Shown one piece after another: positions 49,786 to 62,074 of a DNA stretch of 64,000 nucleotides (positions within the stretch are counted from its first letter, which is position 1; every line of letters starts with the position of its first letter). A program made the position numbers and the translations under genes. The notes beneath the pieces were generated by a model. That model made no database searches, was not told the origin of the DNA, and saw nothing but the letters and a program-made list of their open reading frames with translations. The stretch is from an uncultured Cycloclasticus sp. (GTDB taxonomy: Bacteria > Pseudomonadota > Gammaproteobacteria > Methylococcales > Cycloclasticaceae), in NCBI GenBank assembly GCA_913060865.1, contig CAJXTU010000011.1:1-64000 (forward strand), in the 5' to 3' direction.

Positions 49786-51474
49786 TCATTTAAAAAAAAT
49801 ATCCATCAATAAATACCCACCCAAGATCACACCAATCCACATTACCATGCTGCCTGTTGGCCAGCTGCTGGCTAAATGATACTTTGATAATCGGCTTGCC
49901 TGAAATGTAGACTGAAAACCTTGCCAGCTTTGTTGTATGGCATTTGTTACTCCACGATTAAAACTATGCAACAGGTTATAACCCACACGATCTGTTACCG
50001 AAAACAGTTTTCGATAAAACCAGTCAACATCAAGGCTGATAGTTAAGGTTCGTTTCATCATCGGTAACATGACAAAAAACGCGAGGCCCGCAAATAACAA
50101 CAACTGAAACTGTGCGACCAAGTGAGCCGCCGTATAAGGCTCATAATTCACCGCAAATGGTAAGATGGCATAAAGTGGCTCAGGGTAAACACCCAGGCCA
50201 ATACAAAGTGCCGCAAGCACCCCCATCGCTACTAACATATTGCGCGGCGCTTCTGCTGGCCGCATACCGGAATCTTTTTGGAAGAAAACAAACCAAGGGA
50301 ATTTAATACCTGCATGTAAAAAGACACCGGCTGAAGCTGCGGCCAGTGCAAACCAAACAATAATCAAATTTTGATCTGCCGCTGTTTGCGCAATCATAGA
50401 TTTTGTCACAAACCCTGACGTGAATGGGAAAGATGAAATCGCTAGCGCACCGATAATGCCAAGCAAGGCAGTCCAAGGCATAGTTTGGAAAAGGCCGCCT
50501 AAATCGGTACAACTACGTTTACCCGTTCTATACAACACCGCCCCGGCCGACATTAACAACAGTCCTTTATAAATGATATGAACAAATGCATGCGCGGCTG
50601 CGCCATTAAGCGCCATTTCCGTGCCTAGGCCTATGCCGGTTATCATGAAACCCACCTGATTAACGATGCTATAGGCCAAAATACGCCGCATATCGTTTTC
50701 TAATAAGGCATAAATAATACCGTAGAAAATCATATAGATGCCAATAGGGATTAACAACCACGTCCCAGGAAAAGCAATCAGTAAAGTAAACACTGCTGTC
50801 TTGGTGGTAAAGGCAGAAAGAAATACGCTACCACTCGGACTGGCTTCAGGATAAGCATCGGCAATCCAGGCAGATAATGGTGGTGCGCCGGCGTTTACTA
50901 AAAACCCTGCAAGAATGAGATACTGTGCTATTGAGTCCAATGCTAACGGCGTAAAACTAATAGAACCTGTTTGCACCACATGCCCTGCAATACCTATCAT
51001 CAATAATAAGCCACCCAGCAAGTGAACCATTAAATAACGCATACTGGCGCGATAAGCACCCTCATATCGCGCTGCCCAGATAACAAGTGTTGAGCCAATC
51101 GCCATGATTTCCCAAAAAACAAACAATGTGATCAAATCACCTGATAAGGTCACGCCAATGGCACTACCGGCATAAGCAAACGCGGCTGAAAGCTCTAAGG
51201 TACTCGCTGTCTTATAAGCAAAGATACCGCCAATTAATGCCATTAAACTAAAGATAGTGGCAAACAACTGTCCGACTGTCGTTATTTTTATCGGAACCAG
51301 TTCAAAGCCCAGAAAAGGCAAGGTCACAACATAGTCTGCCGGTGCTGACCAAATAAAGTATAAACAAAGCACAGGTAAAACAAAGATCAGTAGGTTGCGT
51401 ACTTTGATACCAAACGGCATAAACAAGGCACCAATAACAAGCAATAAACCGGGTGGTAATAATAACTCAGTCAT
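49786..51474 (-). CDS. Mrp-like antiporter subunit, NuoL/M/N-type (third proton-pathway paralogue)
   Basis: Membrane subunit of 562 residues with about 14 helices, similar to MnhA/MnhD. The helix-5 glutamate is kept (LFVFWEIMAIGSTL). At the helix-7 position where a lysine is usual (KxxxxPxHxWL) it has NAGAPPLSAWI, so lysine is replaced by asparagine; the later lysine in FLSAFTTKTAV is present. A C-terminal extension with the amphipathic, Q-rich GVTNAIQQSWQGFQSTFQ ends in a last helix. Last gene of the operon, overlapping the small gene before it by 8 bases. Confidence 0.87.
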   Translation of the reverse strand: MTELLLPPGLLLVIGALFMPFGIKVRNLLIFVLPVLCLYFIWSAPADYVVTLPFLGFELVPIKITTVGQLFATIFSLMALIGGIFAYKTASTLELSAAFAYAGSAIGVTLSGDLITLFVFWEIMAIGSTLVIWAARYEGAYRASMRYLMVHLLGGLLLMIGIAGHVVQTGSISFTPLALDSIAQYLILAGFLVNAGAPPLSAWIADAYPEASPSGSVFLSAFTTKTAVFTLLIAFPGTWLLIPIGIYMIFYGIIYALLENDMRRILAYSIVNQVGFMITGIGLGTEMALNGAAAHAFVHIIYKGLLLMSAGAVLYRTGKRSCTDLGGLFQTMPWTALLGIIGALAISSFPFTSGFVTKSMIAQTAADQNLIIVWFALAAASAGVFLHAGIKFPWFVFFQKDSGMRPAEAPRNMLVAMGVLAALCIGLGVYPEPLYAILPFAVNYEPYTAAHLVAQFQLLLFAGLAFFVMLPMMKRTLTISLDVDWFYRKLFSVTDRVGYNLLHSFNRGVTNAIQQSWQGFQSTFQASRLSKYHLASSWPTGSMVMWIGVILGGYLLMDIFFK

Positions 51475-51757
51475 GCTCTACCCCGTTTTCATTTAAACCC
51501 TGGTTGGTATCATCATCGTAATAATTCTCAGGGCGCTTTAAAACAAACCCCAGTAACTTGGCAAAAACCACCATGCCGACACAGGTAACAAACCCATACC
51601 AAGCAAAAAAACCAACACTGTCTTCAATACCAAACGATTCATGCTGATGTACAAAGAATCCAGCTAGTACTGTCAACATTAAAATAATAATGAAGCCAAT
51701 CCAGAGCTTGCGAATGTTTTCTTTACGAAGCAACCAATGTATATTTTGCTCACTCAT
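51467..51757 (-). CDS. Small membrane protein of the Mrp-like operon
   Basis: A 96-residue protein with two likely helices (about 18-38 and 47-68) and an acidic tail (YYDDDTNQGLNENGVEHD). It is embedded between two antiporter subunit genes, overlapping the next by 8 bases and starting 16 bp after the previous. It is therefore very likely a component or assembly factor of the complex. It is not one of the canonical seven Mrp subunits. Confidence 0.75.
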   Translation of the reverse strand: MSEQNIHWLLRKENIRKLWIGFIIILMLTVLAGFFVHQHESFGIEDSVGFFAWYGFVTCVGMVVFAKLLGFVLKRPENYYDDDTNQGLNENGVEHD

Positions 51758-51773
51758 TGTGGATGCTCTCCTA

Positions 51774-53249
51774 TTAATAACATCTTAATAACATCGCCAA
51801 TTGCAACGGCACGTCTGGGAAAAAAAACAGTAATAACGTTAACGAAGCCGTTGTCATTAAGGCAAATACAATCGCCTTAGGTGCCTCACCATGAACAACT
51901 AGCTCACCACTCTCCTGCCCTTCTTTTTTAAACCATGCCGTGTAAATAATCGGAATAAAGTAAGCCGCATTTAATAAAGTACTGGCGATGATGATCAATA
52001 CTGCAAAGACCTGCTCTTGCTGGAAGGCACCCTGCAACATATACCACTTTGAAAGAAAGCCAGCTGTCGGTGGAAGACCAATCATCGATATCGCACCAAT
52101 AGTAAATGCGGCCATCGTCCATGGCATACGATAACCAATGCCATTAAGCTGACTAATGTTGGTTTTATGCGAGGCGGTATAAATTGAACCTGCGGCAAAA
52201 AACAAAGTGACCTTGCCAAAAGCATGAGCAACTATATGTAATGCCGCCGCAACGATCGACAATGGTGCGAGAATGAATACAGCCAAAGTGACATAAGACA
52301 GTTGGCTAATGGTTGAATAAGCAAGACGACGTTTAAGGTTATCTTGCTTCAAAGCAATAATAGACGCGCTAATAATGGTAAACCCAGCAATCCATAATAC
52401 CCAATCCGCACCGTCAGACAGCCGCAACATATCCAGTCCGAAAACATAAATCACTACCTTCACGATACTGAAAACGCCAGCCTTCACCACGGCAACAGCA
52501 TGCAATAAAGCGGACACAGGGGTCGGTGCAACCATAGCCGCAGGTAACCAACGATGCATGGGCATCAATGCTGCTTTGCCAATGCCATAAACATACAAAA
52601 ATAAAAGTACAATTAATTCGGGGCCAGCAATTTTCCCAGCAAGAATACCCTCGGCTTTAAAATCAAGCGTGCCTGTCAAATGCCAAGTCCAGAGGATAGC
52701 TAGCAAGAAAAATCCAATCGAGGTACTCAACAAAATACCCAAATAAACTCGGCCTGCTTTCTTCGCGTCTTCATTGCCCTTATGGGTAACTAAAGGGTAA
52801 GTCGATAAGGTTAATAGCTCATAACAGATAAACAGCGTTAATAAGTTACCTGCCAAAGCAATCCCCATGGTGCAGGAAAGTGCGATAGCAAAACAAATAT
52901 AAAAACGAGTTTGGTGTTTTTCTTTATTACCGCGCATATAACCAATGGAATAAAGCGTATTCACTGGCCACAATAAAGCAGCAACACAGGCAAACAACAT
53001 ACCCAATGGTTCAAGCGTAAAGGTAATCGGTAAACCCGGCACGATCTCCAACAAAGTAATAGATGTCTGATTACCTTCTAGAATGCTGGGTAACAATGAC
53101 AAAACTGTAGCCAGCAAAGCCAGTGATATTATGATTGATAGGGCGTCACGCAGGTTTGGTTTTTTATCTACCAGCACAATTAAAACGGCTGCTAGCAAAG
53201 GCAATAACATCGCCAGTATGATTAATTTCTCACTTGCCAAACTAATCAT
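51774..53249 (-). CDS. Mrp-like antiporter subunit D paralogue (NuoM/N-type)
   Basis: A 491-residue membrane protein with about 14 helices. The helix-5 glutamate is in LFICYELLTLSTYPL and the helix-7 lysine in GIGKAALMPMHRWLPAAM, followed by APTPVSALLHAVAVVKAG with the helix-8 lysine. All charged residues expected for ion translocation are present. Start and preceding stop overlap by 4 bases. Confidence 0.9.
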   Translation of the reverse strand: MISLASEKLIILAMLLPLLAAVLIVLVDKKPNLRDALSIIISLALLATVLSLLPSILEGNQTSITLLEIVPGLPITFTLEPLGMLFACVAALLWPVNTLYSIGYMRGNKEKHQTRFYICFAIALSCTMGIALAGNLLTLFICYELLTLSTYPLVTHKGNEDAKKAGRVYLGILLSTSIGFFLLAILWTWHLTGTLDFKAEGILAGKIAGPELIVLLFLYVYGIGKAALMPMHRWLPAAMVAPTPVSALLHAVAVVKAGVFSIVKVVIYVFGLDMLRLSDGADWVLWIAGFTIISASIIALKQDNLKRRLAYSTISQLSYVTLAVFILAPLSIVAAALHIVAHAFGKVTLFFAAGSIYTASHKTNISQLNGIGYRMPWTMAAFTIGAISMIGLPPTAGFLSKWYMLQGAFQQEQVFAVLIIIASTLLNAAYFIPIIYTAWFKKEGQESGELVVHGEAPKAIVFALMTTASLTLLLFFFPDVPLQLAMLLRCY

Positions 53250-54736
53250 TTATTCACACCCGGTATAAGAAGTTGAACCGCCTGCTGCGCCGTACCAACA
53301 GTAAGTTCGGTATTAAAACCAAAGTACACATTGGCTAATACCAACACCCACATAGGGATAAGCATCATCAACGGCGCTTCTTTTACTGCGGTGTTATGTT
53401 GTTCCATTTCACCCGTCGCTTTAAAGTACAACACTTCAACTATTTTCCAGACATAGATGACGGCTAATAAAGAACCGATTAAAATCACGCCGACGATGAG
53501 CCAGTTCTGTTGTTCAATCGCCGCAAGCACAAGATACCATTTGGATATAAAGCCTGCTGTCCCTGGCACACCAATTAAGCTAAGGCCACCAATCACAATG
53601 GCGGCAAACGTCCATGGCATCTGTTTACCTAGGCCAGAGAAGTGCTCAAGACGGCTCGAACCAACACGATAAACCAAGGCACCAATCGCCATAAACAGGG
53701 CCCCTTTCATCAACGCATGATTAAACAAATGTACTAAGGTGGCGGTGGCACCTAGCACACTACCTAGGCCAATACCGAGCATCATATAACCAATTTGAGC
53801 CACACTTGAATAAGCCAATAAACGCTTACTATCTTTTTGATAAATGGCATAAAACGACATGCCTAAAATACCCATCACACACAGCAACAAGAACAACTCA
53901 TCCGCTGGCGTGCTCTCAATAAAGGTAAAGCTAAACACCGTAAACACCATGCGCAACATCACATAAACCGCAACCTTCGTTGCCGTTGCCGCTAGAAAAA
54001 TCGTAACGACTGTAGGCGCATAAGTATACGCATTCGGTAACCAGACGTGTAACGGGAACAACGCCAGTTTTAACGCAAAGCCCACCATAATAAATGCAAA
54101 CGCGGTATGAATGGTGCGGTGCTCATATAACTCGGGTAAACGTTGCGCTAAGTCTGCCATATTGAGTGTGCCCGTCATGGCATATAGCAAACCGACACCA
54201 ATAATAAAAAATGTCGCGCCAATCGTACCCATAATCAAATATTGATAAGCCGCGGTGAGTGCCTGCCGCTTTTTACCTAAGCTGATTAAGGCATAAGATG
54301 ACAATGATGAAATTTCTAAAAAGACAAATAGATTAAAAATGTCGCCTGTTTGTGCGATACCTAACAAGCCCGTCAGACACAACATAAAGGCCGCATAAAA
54401 AAGCGCGTGCTGCTGTTGCGGAATTTCTTTAATTACACTTTTCAGCGCATACGGCAAGGTGAGTGCTGCAATGCCTGAAACGATTAACGCCACTAAGGCA
54501 TTGGCTGCATCAATTCGATATTCAATGCCCCAAGGCGGCGCCCAACCACCGAGTTCATAACTGATGACATTACCCGTGTTGACATTCATTAATTGCCAGG
54601 CAGCCAAATAAAAGACTGACCAACTCACTAAGGTGCTAACGGCCCAAGGTAAGCGTCCATTTGGTAACACAGCAACAATAGGCGCAGCGAGTAACGGTAA
54701 AACAACCAACAGCAGGCTTAAATGGTTTTCTATCAC
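53246..54736 (-). CDS. mnhD: Na+/H+ antiporter subunit D (MnhD/MrpD)
   Basis: A 496-residue ion-translocating subunit. E in NLFVFLEISSLSSYAL (helix 5), K in GFALKLALFPLHVWLPNAY (helix 7) and a later lysine in LAATATKVAVYV are present. It overlaps the MnhC gene by 4 bases and the following D paralogue by 4 bases. Confidence 0.92.
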   Translation of the reverse strand: MIENHLSLLLVVLPLLAAPIVAVLPNGRLPWAVSTLVSWSVFYLAAWQLMNVNTGNVISYELGGWAPPWGIEYRIDAANALVALIVSGIAALTLPYALKSVIKEIPQQQHALFYAAFMLCLTGLLGIAQTGDIFNLFVFLEISSLSSYALISLGKKRQALTAAYQYLIMGTIGATFFIIGVGLLYAMTGTLNMADLAQRLPELYEHRTIHTAFAFIMVGFALKLALFPLHVWLPNAYTYAPTVVTIFLAATATKVAVYVMLRMVFTVFSFTFIESTPADELFLLLCVMGILGMSFYAIYQKDSKRLLAYSSVAQIGYMMLGIGLGSVLGATATLVHLFNHALMKGALFMAIGALVYRVGSSRLEHFSGLGKQMPWTFAAIVIGGLSLIGVPGTAGFISKWYLVLAAIEQQNWLIVGVILIGSLLAVIYVWKIVEVLYFKATGEMEQHNTAVKEAPLMMLIPMWVLVLANVYFGFNTELTVGTAQQAVQLLIPGVNK

Positions 54737-55089
54737 AACGATTGATCCTGATTATGAATATCATCTTCCTCAATGGTGCCGTACGCTTCCTTTATACGTA
54801 CCACCAACGCTAAACCCAGTGCTGTGGTTGCAACACCCACGACAATAGCGGTAAGAATTAAAACATGCGGTAATGGGTTGGAATAAAGGTCAACCCCTTT
54901 TTCTATGATGGGCGTTGCGCCGTCTTTCACATTACCGATGCTGATATAAAGTAAAAAGACTGACACCTGAAAAATATTCAAACCCACGATTTTTTTCACT
55001 AGGTTGCCACGGCTAATAACCGTATAGAACCCTGCCATCATAATAATGATAACCATCCAGTAATTGTAATGCCCTAGAATCATGTCCAT
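54733..55089 (-). CDS. mnhC: Na+/H+ antiporter subunit C (MnhC/NuoK-like)
   Basis: A 118-residue NuoK-like protein with three helices. Typical are IMAGFYTVISRGNLVKKIVGLNIFQVSVFLL and the conserved PLPHVLILTAIVVGVATTALGLAL. It starts 5 bp after MnhB and overlaps MnhD. Confidence 0.93.
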   Translation of the reverse strand: MDMILGHYNYWMVIIIMMAGFYTVISRGNLVKKIVGLNIFQVSVFLLYISIGNVKDGATPIIEKGVDLYSNPLPHVLILTAIVVGVATTALGLALVVRIKEAYGTIEEDDIHNQDQSL

Positions 55090-55094
55090 ATAAC

Positions 55095-55568
55095 TTACTC
55101 TCGTTCCGATTCAATTTTAGAATTCAGAACCGCTTGGCCTCGTTCCGCAAAGGTAAAGAAAATAATCAACATCACAGACATCACAGTCATGCCCACACCC
55201 AATTCAATCACCAGAATTCCCAGATGCTGACCGGCCAGTTGTGATGAAGCTAAGACACCGTACTGTAAAAAATTACCACCCAATAGTATCGTTGCAGCAC
55301 CCGTGCCAGCATAAATCAACACACCTAGGCTAGCCAGCAGGCGTAAAACATAAGGTGTAATAACTCTTTTGGCCTTATCAAGGCCAAACACTAGGCCATA
55401 CAAAATGATCGCGGCACTAAAAATAACACCTGCCTGAAAACCACCGCCCGGCCCAAAGTCGCCATGGAACTGCACGTAAAGTGCAAATAAAATAATTAAT
55501 GGAATCAGGAACTTGGAAACGACACGTAAAATTAAATTATGCTTCACGATCACCGCCGTTCTTTTCAA
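55095..55568 (-). CDS. mnhB: Na+/H+ antiporter subunit B (MnhB)
   Basis: A 157-residue subunit with four helices. The MnhB signature HGDFGPGGGFQAGVIFSAA is present. It begins inside the end of the upstream MrpA-C-like gene (32-base overlap). Confidence 0.93.
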   Translation of the reverse strand: MKRTAVIVKHNLILRVVSKFLIPLIILFALYVQFHGDFGPGGGFQAGVIFSAAIILYGLVFGLDKAKRVITPYVLRLLASLGVLIYAGTGAATILLGGNFLQYGVLASSQLAGQHLGILVIELGVGMTVMSVMLIIFFTFAERGQAVLNSKIESERE

Positions 55569-56124
55569 TTTTAGATTTCACACGACGACGGCCACCAATA
55601 ATTAACAGCACAGCGATACCCGCAGTAAAAATCACGGTCACTTCGCCTAATGTATCAAAGCCACGATAACTCGCCAATACCGCGGTCACCACATTCGGCA
55701 CGCCAGTTTCTGGCATACTTTTTTCCAAATAATATGGCGCAACGTGTAACTGTGACGGTGCATTAGGGTCACCAAAGCCAGGTAAGTTGTATGTACCATA
55801 AATTAACAACGCCCCTGTTATAAAGACAACACTTAAAGGAAGCCAAGGTTTATGTGTGGGTGCTTTTTCTTCTTTATCCGCCTCTGCTGGTGTATAGGTT
55901 AACGCCAACGTTGCTAACATGAGTACGGTTGATATACCTGCACCAACCGCCGCTTCAGTGAATGCCACATCAGCAGCATCCATTACTACAAATAGCCCTG
56001 CCGATAAAAAACTAAATCCACTGAATAACATTACGACAGCGAATAAACTTCGCATACGAATAATAGCTACTGCATGTATCGCAATAAGACTTAACAAAGT
56101 GATATCAACAATATTATCAATCAT
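55537..56124 (-). CDS. MrpA C-terminal-like subunit (DUF4040; MbhD-MbhE-type fusion)
   Basis: A 195-residue protein equal to the C-terminal domain of large MrpA. The first half (TLLSLIAIHAVAIIRMRSLF, then AAVGAGISTVLML) is DUF4040/MbhD-like. The second half (PNVVTAVLASYRGFDTLGEV) is MbhE-like. In canonical Mrp operons this is fused to a NuoL-like N-terminal part; here it stands alone. It overlaps mnhG by 4 bases. Confidence 0.88.
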   Translation of the reverse strand: MIDNIVDITLLSLIAIHAVAIIRMRSLFAVVMLFSGFSFLSAGLFVVMDAADVAFTEAAVGAGISTVLMLATLALTYTPAEADKEEKAPTHKPWLPLSVVFITGALLIYGTYNLPGFGDPNAPSQLHVAPYYLEKSMPETGVPNVVTAVLASYRGFDTLGEVTVIFTAGIAVLLIIGGRRRVKSKIEKNGGDREA

Positions 56125-56456
56125 TGCTTATCCAGCTGTTCTGAATTATCAATATCATCATTTGAAAGCACCGGCTTAAGCCCGCCCAGCATGGCCGCAT
56201 TAGCTAATAGGTGTGATGAGGTTGGACTGGTAAAAAATATAAACACAAAAATTAAAAATAATTTAATACTGGCTATGGTTAGACCAGCCTGAAAACCCAG
56301 CCCTAATAAAAATAATGCCGCACATAATGTATCGGTGATACCTACCGCATGAAGTCGTGTATAAAAATCAGGAAAACGGTGCATCCCAACACCACCAACA
56401 ATTCCAAGTAAACCGCCTAACGTCAGACAAATCCAGCTGAGTATTTCTATCATCAT
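56121..56456 (-). CDS. mnhG: Na+/H+ antiporter subunit G (MnhG)
   Basis: A 111-residue subunit with three helices. The MnhG pattern is GIVGGVGMHRFPDFYTRLHAVGITDT followed by FIFFTSPTSSHLLANAA. It overlaps its neighbours by 4 bases on both sides. Confidence 0.93.
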   Translation of the reverse strand: MMIEILSWICLTLGGLLGIVGGVGMHRFPDFYTRLHAVGITDTLCAALFLLGLGFQAGLTIASIKLFLIFVFIFFTSPTSSHLLANAAMLGGLKPVLSNDDIDNSEQLDKQ

Positions 56457-56758
56457 TTGTCATTCACCTCTTGCTGATTATCAACCGAGGTCTCACCATC
56501 AGTATAAAGGTTCCCCTGCTCGATTAATTTTAAAACAGCAACAACACCAATAAAATTAATCAAGGTATAAACCAGCGCAATATCAAGCAAGTCATGTCGG
56601 TCCGTTAAAAAAGCAAATACGGCTATAAGCAAAATTGTTTTAGTACCTATCATATTCATTGCTGCAATACGGTCGTAAACTGTTGGGCCTAACAAGGCAC
56701 GCACAAGCGCCAGTAAAATAGTTATTAGAATGGCAATAATCGCAACGGTAAACATCAT
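56453..56758 (-). CDS. mnhF: Na+/H+ antiporter subunit F (MnhF)
   Basis: A 101-residue subunit with three helices. The family pattern ALLGPTVYDRIAAMNMIGTK and ALVYTLINFIGVVAVLK is complete. An ATGA overlap links it to mnhE and mnhG. Confidence 0.93.
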   Translation of the reverse strand: MMFTVAIIAILITILLALVRALLGPTVYDRIAAMNMIGTKTILLIAVFAFLTDRHDLLDIALVYTLINFIGVVAVLKLIEQGNLYTDGETSVDNQQEVNDK

Positions 56759-57234
56759 GAAAATAACTCCCCATTCTCAGGAACCGCCTTTACCATGTCG
56801 CTTTTTTGTAAATCCTCTGCGCCTTCTTTACTTAAGGCATGAACTTTTATTTCATCATCAGATAATTCCAACGTAACAGTTCCCGGTGTGAGTGTTATTG
56901 AGTTGGCATAAATCACTTTGCCTAACGCTGTTTTTTTAATGGCAGGAAGCGTCATCACTTGCGGACTAATATTGACACGTCCTGGCGTGAGAATTCTTTT
57001 TATAACATCAACGTTTGCTTTAAGAATTTCTTTGCCAAGATAAAAATAATACCCCAGTAGGCGCCAACTCAAGTGAAAAGGGTAACTCTCGTGATCAATA
57101 ATACTCATTCGTTTGGCTAGGTAAACAGTGAGCATCGTTGAGAGCACACCAAATGTAAGCAGTAACGTTCCGGTATGCCCTGAAAGCATAAACCAAAACA
57201 GAAAAATCAGGCAGGCCGTAACAATTGTCCTCAT
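56755..57234 (-). CDS. mnhE: Na+/H+ antiporter subunit E (MnhE)
   Basis: First gene of the antiporter operon, 159 residues. Two N-terminal helices are followed by the soluble MnhE domain with YFYLGKEILKANVDVIKRIL and the signature YANSITLTPGTVTLEL. The operon order E-F-G-(A-C-terminal)-B-C-D-D-x-D resembles archaeal Mbh/Mbs modules more than the standard A-B-C-D-E-F-G. Confidence 0.93.
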   Translation of the reverse strand: MRTIVTACLIFLFWFMLSGHTGTLLLTFGVLSTMLTVYLAKRMSIIDHESYPFHLSWRLLGYYFYLGKEILKANVDVIKRILTPGRVNISPQVMTLPAIKKTALGKVIYANSITLTPGTVTLELSDDEIKVHALSKEGAEDLQKSDMVKAVPENGELFS

Positions 57235-60810: not shown

Positions 60811-61344
60811 ATGAAACTTGCTATTTTATCGTGTGGGCCAAATTCTTATAGTACAAGACGTTTAAAAGAAGCGGCACTTCAAAGAGGGCATGATGTTAAG
60901 GTGTTGAACACACTTAAATTTGCCATTGATTTACAACAAGGGATCCCAGACCTCTACTACCGGCAAAAGGTATTAAGTAGTTACGATGCTGTATTACCAC
61001 GGATAGGGGCATCAATTACTTACTACGGCACGGCTGTTGTGCGTCAGTTTCAAGAAATGGGTGTTTTTTGTGCGAATACGGCACATGGCATCTCCAATTC
61101 ACGTGATAAGCTACGTAGTTTACAAATCTTAAGTCGTCACCACATCGGCATCCCTAGAACAACGTTTTTGCGAGATAAAAAAGATGTTATTCCTGCCATC
61201 GAGCGAGTCGGTGGAGCACCTGTCGTCATTAAATTAATTGAAGGCACCCAAGGTATTGGCGTTCTATTGGCAGAGTCAATGAAGGCCGCTGAATCTATTA
61301 TCGAACTCTTACAAAGCCAAAAGCAAAAGGTCTGGCGGGAATAA
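60811..61344 (+). pseudogene. rimK: rimK, truncated by a fused IS21-family fragment
   Basis: RimK is an ATP-grasp ligase that adds glutamates to ribosomal protein S6. The frame has a proper start (AAGGA upstream) and reads MKLAILSCGPNSYSTRRLKE, then RIGASITYYG, SRDKLRSLQ and GTQGIGVLLAES. After about residue 172 the sequence leaves the RimK pattern and runs into IS DNA, stopping at residue 177. Full RimK has about 300 residues, so most of the ATP-grasp catalytic half is missing. The rest is not found downstream. It is almost certainly non-functional. Confidence 0.88.
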
Positions 61345-62074
61345 TGACGGTATTGTAATGTGTTGCCAGTTGTTGATAAGTTGGATTTAGATCAGGTTCA
61401 TATCGGCAGGGTTTGGTAACCGCACTTTTAAGGTTGTCAGGAATGACCAGCTCTGGCACACCATCCAGAAACTCAAAACAACGGGCATGACTCATGACCC
61501 AATCTTCAAGCTTTTGGCTGTACGTGGCTTCCGCATACGTGTAATTTGATGCGCCCATAACGGCGACAAACACTTAGGGGGTAAGGCACTCACCGGTACT
61601 AGTGCCCACAATACTCATGGTGGGTCCACAGTAATCAACAAACAGTTTTTCACCTGCCTTGTGATTTTGCCGCATAGAAGGTTTTTGGCATTTAAGCCAT
61701 GCCTTGTACTGGCGGCAGAAGTGGGTGTAACTGTAAAAACCTTCCACGTGCCGCTCTTTATATTCCTCCCAAAGCAGTAACAACGTCATCGTTTTGGGTC
61801 GTAATTCTTGTTGAACCAATGACCAGTCAGGCATGGTGAAACCTTTTAACCGAGGCTTTGTTTTGAAGAACGCCTGCTGCAAAGAATGATCACTCCACTT
61901 TTGATCAAGCGGCCAAGAAGTAATACCAAGTTCTGCTGATTGGCGGGAATATTTAGAAACAATGGAGGGTGAAACAGATAGGCTACTAGCTATCTGACGA
62001 TGACTGAGTTGACAGCCGTATTTTAGTCTTAAAATCTCTTTAAGTTTACGCATTGAAATGGGTACCGTTGGCAT
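61331..62074 (-). pseudogene. IS21-family transposase IstA, truncated and with in-frame stop
   Basis: The minus-strand frame begins at ATG 62074 (MPTVPISMRKLKEILRLKYG) with an N-terminal helix-turn-helix (HRQIASSLSVSPSIVSKY). It continues to GEKLFVDYCGP, the first catalytic aspartate, and reaches a TAA at 61576-61574. It goes on in the same frame with [17 protein letters not shown], then [14 protein letters not shown] (second aspartate) and NTVIIPARP. It then meets rimK DNA at about 61331. The third acidic residue, the rest of istA and all of istB are lost. Confidence 0.88.

Follow-up and report, generated by a model that had tools for sequence, protein, structure and literature searches.

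A widespread group 3 Mrp-type operon with three antiporter-like subunits and an unnamed small membrane protein in an uncultured Cycloclasticus

Group 3 Mrp systems are defined by the absence of mrpA and by mrpD-like genes that are sometimes present in several copies (PMC8415708). The operon described here lies in a stretch of 64,000 nucleotides from an uncultured Cycloclasticus sp. (GCA_913060865.1, contig CAJXTU010000011.1, positions 1 to 64,000; hereafter, the window). It fits that description, as it lacks mrpA and encodes three large antiporter-like proteins, termed D1, D2, and D3, with a 96-residue membrane protein, termed X, between the last two; its kind is therefore known. Similar operons have been sighted before. 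The Solemya velum symbiont has MrpEFGBBCDD (PMC4287430), and in Candidatus Nitrospira alkalitolerans two NuoM/NuoL-like genes follow mrpD (PMC7784846), although the accessible part of that account mentions no small gene. The order E-F-G-B-B'-C-D is shared with the symbiont and with mrpEFGBB'CD of Pyrococcus furiosus (PMC8415708, PMC4287430), but P. furiosus Mrp has one D, whereas the window operon has three antiporter-like subunits and X.

Other relatives share parts of this plan. Group 1/2 Mrp (Bacillus, Anoxybacillus, Dietzia, and Sinorhizobium pSymB) has all of the domain types; however, its MrpA is a single large protein with a NuoL-like core, a lateral helix, and a C-terminal domain (PMC7419157). 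In the P. furiosus MBS complex, a lateral helix on MbsH' ties the antiporter-like subunits together (PMC7684303), and D3 groups with MbsH'; unlike the window operon, MBS combines a redox arm with only two such subunits, and a lysine (K217) is present in transmembrane helix (TM) 7 of MbsH'. Haloarchaeal Mrp operons (Haloterrigena alkaliphila and Halomontanus rarus) have the order E-F-G-DUF4040-B-C-D-D-D, with matches to the D1, D2, and D3 families and an Asn in TM7 of D3. Finally, pairs of MrpD-like subunits have been reported both from complex I and from an oxidase complex; in the green complex I of rhizobia, two such subunits take the place of NuoL and are counted as ion pumps (PMC9040806).

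We read the window operon as encoding a ten-subunit-type membrane complex, a group 3 Mrp-type Na+ (or K+)/H+ antiporter with D1, D2, and D3 in a row, in which D3 would serve as an end cap and coupling element or as an altered channel and X would be a true subunit. We give this reading a probability of roughly 70%. The points of interest are X, the Asn-type third subunit, the module that the operon has in common with complex I, and the natural chimera that it represents.

Gene content and class of the operon

On the minus strand, from 57234 to 49786, ten open reading frames follow one another head to tail, with short gaps between them or slight overlaps; their order is E-F-G-Ac(DUF4040)-B-C-D1-D2-X-D3 (Table 1). 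An earlier, sequence-only reading of this DNA had proposed an Mbh-like gene order, a split MrpA, and an embedded extra membrane protein of 96 residues, and all three proposals are borne out. The split is three-way: the NuoL-like core is in D2, which stops after the core (491 aa) and has no lateral helix; the lateral helix is in D3; and the C-terminal domain is in Ac. Thus, the functions of MrpA are divided among three proteins. A further proposal, that there are three ion-pathway subunits, holds by homology (three PF00361 proteins) but not by residues, as D3 lacks the TM7 lysine.

The class assignment rests on both presence and absence. E, F, G, B, C, and the MrpA C-terminal domain were all matched in Pfam; the NCBIfam matches agree with Pfam for the operon proteins, and the name DUF4040 comes from NCBIfam. 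The large subunits are three separate PF00361 proteins of 491-562 aa, and no mrpA gene was found. D1, D2, and D3 are the sole PF00361 proteins detected in the genome (2.43 Mb in 39 contigs), which hence shows no ordinary complex I. These are the features of group 3 Mrp. A fused MrpA of about 780-1000 aa, as in groups 1 and 2, is absent from the operon, whose largest protein has 562 aa and whose Ac is separate. No redox family, as in MBH or MBS, was found among the ten neighbouring proteins tested, and no Nuo redox or quinone subunits, as in complex I (green complex I included), lie alongside the operon. The sequence-only reading had named, as what would count against it, a place for the operon inside an already characterised subgroup of identical composition: a named subgroup does accommodate it (PMC8415708), whereas a biochemical study of a complex with this composition was not found in a literature search whose coverage left out most subscription papers.

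Table 1. Features of the Mrp-type operon in the window
Feature	Coordinates	Strand	Matches and residues
E, MrpE-type subunit, 159 aa	56755..57234	-	PF01899 (MNHE), 99.6 bits
F, MrpF-type subunit, 101 aa	56453..56758	-	PF04066; DR motif of the proposed cation path kept (alignment)
G, MrpG-type subunit, 111 aa	56121..56456	-	PF03334 (MnhG); last-helix proline kept (alignment)
Ac, DUF4040 protein = MrpA C-terminal domain (MbhD+MbhE)	55537..56124	-	PF13244, PF20501; RGFDTLGE kept
B, MrpB, MnhB domain, 157 aa	55095..55568	-	PF04039, 100.7 bits
C, MrpC/NuoK-type subunit, 118 aa	54733..55089	-	PF00420 (Oxidored_q2)
D1, MrpD/NuoN-side antiporter-like subunit	53246..54736	-	Proton_antipo_M; E141, K223, K254, H340, K399 kept
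D2, MrpA-N/NuoL-side antiporter-like core, without lateral helix	51774..53249	-	Proton_antipo_M; E144, K225, K256, H342, K401 kept
X, conserved membrane protein, 96 aa	51467..51757	-	predicted helices 12-35, 50-73; conserved F50, G55, F56, C59, K67, R75, Y79, Y80
D3, MbsH'-like antiporter-like subunit, 562 aa	49786..51474	-	NF009310, 659 bits (cut-off 564); TM7 Asn194; C-terminal lateral helix + TM16
D3 lateral helix (predicted residues 484-532) + TM16 (541-561)	49789..50025	-	genus-like from about residue 496, unlike the remaining D3
Exchanged segment, ends approximate: D2 from about residue 35, X, D3 to about residue 490	50000..53150	-	

Spread of the operon and conservation of X

We compared 121 loci, namely the window and 120 fetched loci: 37 from genomes of the gammaproteobacterial class, 3 from congeners, and 80 stretches of named genomes. 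The last set was obtained by scanning with a D3 alignment and comprises the best 80 of at least 591 stretches, that is, those closest to the query. Loci were annotated with hidden Markov models (HMMs) derived from the first 40 loci together with the window, and doubled matches were counted once. Of 274 genomes of the class, 49 have a match to the D3 family, NF009310, above its cut-off, and operon regions were taken from 37 of the 48 such genomes other than that of the window. Within the genus, D3 and X are present in 4 of 18 genomes, some of them incomplete, and the same four are the only carriers among the 61 genomes of the relatives set.

The complete ten-gene order was found in 98 of the 121 loci and spans Pseudomonadota, Myxococcota, Planctomycetota, Deferribacterota, and Desulfuromonadaceae. 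D2-X-D3 is present in 117, as 19 further loci have it with the remainder cut off or elsewhere. With counts of this size, the arrangement cannot be put down to chance. This composition is a widespread, little-studied form of a known exchanger. At five loci (L072, L075, L080, L107, and L120), C-D1-D2-X-D3 stands alone; we rejected the idea of a separate five-subunit machine, because all five genomes have E-F-G-Ac-B elsewhere. One locus (L140) has B-C-D1-D2-X-D3, and E, F, G, and Ac were not found within the locus, to which the search was confined. Next to the operon at two others (L057 and L060), the opposite strand carries ordinary Mrp genes (MrpA-, C-, and D-like), so that two exchanger types are adjacent.

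The conservation of the 96-residue gene, which the sequence-only reading had singled out for checking, proved to be high: X stands before D3 in 119 of the 121 bacterial loci. In the two exceptions (L102 and L158), D3 is alone, with fewer than 120 bases present upstream of it (contig ends). Two loci (L154 and L161) have X-D3 without D2; L154, like L102 and L158, starts at or near a contig end. Even so, this conserved small protein is unnamed in the libraries searched. X has no match in Pfam, NCBIfam, or PHROG at E <= 0.001 and no credible match in the PDB (best E 0.4), and no study of it was found in the literature, where coverage of subscription papers was limited. Residue 70 of X tracks the D3 type, defined by the TM7 residue of D3: it is Arg in 29 of 30 loci with a Lys-type D3 and Gly or Ala in 88 of 89 loci with an Asn-type D3. 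Because adjacent genes travel together, this covariation is no proof of contact. In two loci (L160 and L092), two stretches match the X model, possibly owing to a frame break or a duplicated X.

Eleven of the 18 genus genomes were examined further, and all 11 have two NQR/RNF-family genes. PF00361 was found in only 4 of the 11, the four carriers of D3 and X, each time in three copies at the Mrp locus, and complex I in none. The two NQR/RNF-family genes fit a sodium economy.

The three antiporter-like subunits and their proposed working

A quick-method tree of 68 antiporter-like proteins, in which the program flagged several branches as long, places D1, D2, and D3 in one group each (support 98*, 100*, and 99*). 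D1 was placed with MrpD, NuoN, MbhH, and MbsH (96*), D2 beside MrpA, NuoL, and HyfD (90), and D3 with MbsH' (91); haloarchaeal D1, D2, and D3 and the D2 and D3 of Sinorhizobium meliloti complex I fall inside the respective groups. The three large subunits, for which the sequence-only reading had suggested such a phylogeny, are thus separate: one MrpD/NuoN-like, one MrpA/NuoL-like, and one MbsH'-like. The AlphaFold2 model of window D3 (mean predicted local distance difference test score 89.5, with lower confidence around residues 471-490 and 521-540) has a lateral helix of 49 residues at 484-532 and TM16 at 541-561. Its best PDB match is B. pseudofirmus MrpA (7qru_A, template-modelling score 0.82 by query length), and MbsH' ranks tenth. 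Both the tree and the fold speak for kinship; neither is evidence of activity.

The standard proton channel has Glu in TM5, Lys in TM7, TM8, and TM12, and His in TM11, and both D1 and D2 of the window have the full set. In D1, the Glu and the three lysines are present in 111 of 111 sequences and the His in 109; in D2, all five sites are kept in 114 of 114, and rhizobial D2 keeps them as well. In D3, the TM8 Lys, His295, and the TM12 Lys are present in 121 of 121 and the TM5 Glu in 120, with one gap. The TM7 site of D3 is occupied by Asn in 91 of 121 sequences, including Asn194 of the window, and by Lys in the other 30, with no other residue seen, and Ser occupies the TM7 His site in 78 of 121; window D3 thus lacks the TM7 lysine of the standard channel. 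Selection of the 80 named loci for their similarity to the query biases the sample towards Asn. Asn is also found at this site in rhizobial complex I (4/4 examined) and in haloarchaea (2/2); MbsH' has Lys. Among the cation-side subunits, the signatures of F (DR), G (Pro), and Ac (RGFDTLGE) are kept.

These residues bear on the proposal, made in the sequence-only reading, that all three antiporter-like subunits pump and so raise the H+ per cation ratio above that of ordinary Mrp. On the one hand, 30 of 121 D3 proteins, among them those of the three congeners and L159, have both the TM7 Lys and the TM7 His, and the remaining key residues of D3 are invariant or nearly so. On the other hand, the window and 90 other loci have Asn at the lysine site, and in Bacillus the substitutions MrpA-K223A and MrpD-K219A abolish antiport (PMC5703873). 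With Asn194 at a site that is essential there, a third full ion pathway in the window is doubtful, and we regard the proposal as unlikely.

We favour instead the reading given at the outset, that of a group 3 Mrp-type exchanger with a non-standard D3. From the sequence we infer assembly into one complex, the order of the row, antiport, the ion and its direction, the stoichiometry, and the role of X, as follows. E-F-G-Ac-B-C would form the cation half, and D1, D2, and D3 would be lined up beside it, as NuoN, NuoM, and NuoL are in complex I, with the lateral helix of D3 clamping the row. Protons would enter by way of D1 and D2, in which the key residues are intact, and their influx would drive cation export at the D1/C/Ac junction. 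With Asn in place of the TM7 lysine, an Asn-type D3 is expected to cap the row and take part in coupling, or to be an altered channel, rather than to work as a standard third pump. X would be a true subunit that goes with D3 and is probably packed against it.

An arrangement of D1-D2-D3 in one row is favoured, though not proved. The spacing from TM15 to TM16, read by hydropathy, is 45 and 54 in two MrpA proteins (two large subunits), 73 in window D3, and 81 in NuoL (three); Deinococcus MrpA was unreadable by this means and was left out. Window D3 is thus nearer to three-subunit NuoL than to two-subunit MrpA. D3 linkers in Mrp operons measure 44-62 in 113 of 119 cases, and a further two D3 were not measurable. 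The other six linkers, of 75-92, belong to L163, L164, L154, L158, L160, and L161 (Desulfobacterota-like, Deferribacterota, Scalindua, and Syntrophomonadaceae). Medians in Mrp operons are 53-54; in rhizobial complex I, all four operons have a linker of 77.

Several observations weigh against the exchanger reading as a whole or against parts of it. Helix spacing is a weak guide to the number of subunits: three-subunit spacings exceed two-subunit ones, yet three and four overlap, as haloarchaeal D3 and HyfB (three) have 88 and 103 and D3 of the four-subunit S. meliloti complex I (D2, D3, M, and N) has 93. Moreover, the linkers of 84 and 82 in L163 and L164 occur in intact three-subunit operons. 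A rule by which helix length counts the subunits was rejected on these exceptions. Haloarchaeal Mrp operons (L167 and L181), unlike that of the window, have no X between D2 and D3, and their D1 is without the TM8 lysine (2/2); thus, key sites vary in working lineages. That Asn is the sole alternative to Lys at the TM7 site of D3 argues against simple decay. In Ac, Gly takes the place of the Glu of the MrpA 'VEA' stretch and a Glu occurs one turn of the helix earlier, which is also the state of the haloarchaeal protein; in an alignment of window C, no evident counterparts of the MrpC histidines named for Anoxybacillus are seen. In L161, about 790 bases ahead of X carry no trace of D2, and X-D3 precedes E-B-F-G-Ac-C-D1, which suggests that X is perhaps tied more closely to D3 than to D2. 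The failure to find biochemistry for this composition, noted above, also counts here.

The D2-X-D3 genes in complex I and in a chimeric operon

How many antiporter-like subunits of complex I relatives move protons is an open question in the field, and the same module is found in both an exchanger and a redox pump. On S. meliloti pSymA the order is nuoJ-nuoK-D2-X-D3-nuoM-nuoN-nuoA-nuoB, and the Mrp-operon HMMs give 598 bits for D2, 63.8 for X, and 681 for D3. Three further rhizobial records have the same order, with X labelled 'hypothetical protein'. In all four operons opened, D2-X-D3 replaces NuoL (about 600 bits for D2, 64-69 for X, and 681-693 for D3), and the three genes stand in the same order as in the window, although between NuoK and NuoM of a redox complex and with the longer D3 linker. 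In a plasmid collection, S. meliloti D3 matches 101 records (99 rhizobial and 2 haloarchaeal; E <= 1e-60) and S. meliloti X matches 99, with rhizobial genus counts identical to those of D3; window X as the query gave no match in this collection. The accessible part of the green complex I account does not mention the small protein (PMC9040806).

These relatives, together with the MrpD-like pairs reported for an oxidase complex as well as for complex I (PMC9040806), raise the question of whether the window operon itself belongs to a bigger redox assembly of the MBH, MBS, or complex I kind, with its redox half encoded elsewhere in the genome. We consider this improbable: none of the ten neighbouring proteins (44 to 64 kb of the window) is of a redox family, the genome has no other PF00361 protein, and the Mrp cation subunits E, F, and G, which complex I lacks, are present. 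The idea in the sequence-only reading that three such subunits could allow coupling to another module is therefore upheld for the rhizobial complex I operons (4/4) but finds no redox partner among the neighbours in the window.

A segment near the end of the window operon also differs in origin from the rest of it. From E to D1, the window is 88-98% identical to the congener L046, whereas D2, X, and D3 are 56, 39, and 50% identical. In D2, identity to L046 drops after about residue 35. Residues 1-480 of D3 match L046 at 221 of 480 positions and locus L069 at 334 of 480; for residues 496-562 the numbers are 50 of 67 and 25 of 67, respectively, and the DNA from 50033 to 49784 is 80% identical to L046. 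The D1 tree groups the window with L046-L048 and L159 (a metagenome-assembled genome labelled Gammaproteobacteria bacterium) with support 98*. Forcing this group costs 190 log units for D2 (approximately unbiased test, p 6e-48) and 308 for the D3 core (1e-45); these p-values are descriptive only, because the group was named after the identities were seen. Judged by these identities and trees, the window operon is a natural chimera, in which E to D1 and the lateral-helix end are genus-type and most of D2, X, and the D3 core are not.

Such exchanges recur on the tree. We counted the changes of the Lys/Asn label needed on trees of 110 loci (98 for the joined F+G+Ac+B+C tree and 119 for X), made with a simpler model and a quick search. 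The D3 tree needs 1 change and the X tree 3, the D1 tree 11 (7 forced by starred branches), the D2 tree 6 (3 forced), and the joined tree 10 (6 forced). Hence, D3 and X have been exchanged repeatedly, and D2 accompanies them only sometimes. In Thalassotalea sp. ND16A (L092) compared with L049 and L050, for example, the D3 type was exchanged and D2 was kept, with the break near the end of D2. We rejected a rule by which the core would keep its lateral helix in every exchange, as the helix was retained in the window only and not in L092 versus L049/L050. As for direction, the window and not its congeners would be the recipient; this is favoured because the nearest outgroups in the D1 tree are Lys-type. 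That two organisms were joined by an assembly error is hardly credible, even for a draft genome of 39 contigs, as both joints are in frame inside genes, genus-type sequence resumes at the end of D3, and the same kind of exchange recurs, with at least 7 D3-type changes forced by starred branches of the D1 tree.

Taken further, these findings permit a bolder reading, which we offer as tentative and would not ourselves bet on. D2-X-D3 may be a portable end module, with X as an overlooked subunit, that can be fitted to an Mrp core or to a complex I core; D3 would be ancestrally Asn, a non-pumping clamp, and recombination between Lys- and Asn-type D3, of which the window operon would be one product, would change the ion ratio. 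If this is true, one of the 'extra pumps' published for rhizobial green complex I contributes no proton. Natural variants with near-identical cores and either a Lys- or an Asn-type D3 make the contribution of one subunit directly testable.

Elsewhere in the window, at 60811-62074, a RimK-like gene ends after 177 aa and matches positions 2-74 of the 188-position RimK domain. It adjoins two opposite-strand open reading frames without a Pfam match, and the arrangement looks like insertion or decay.

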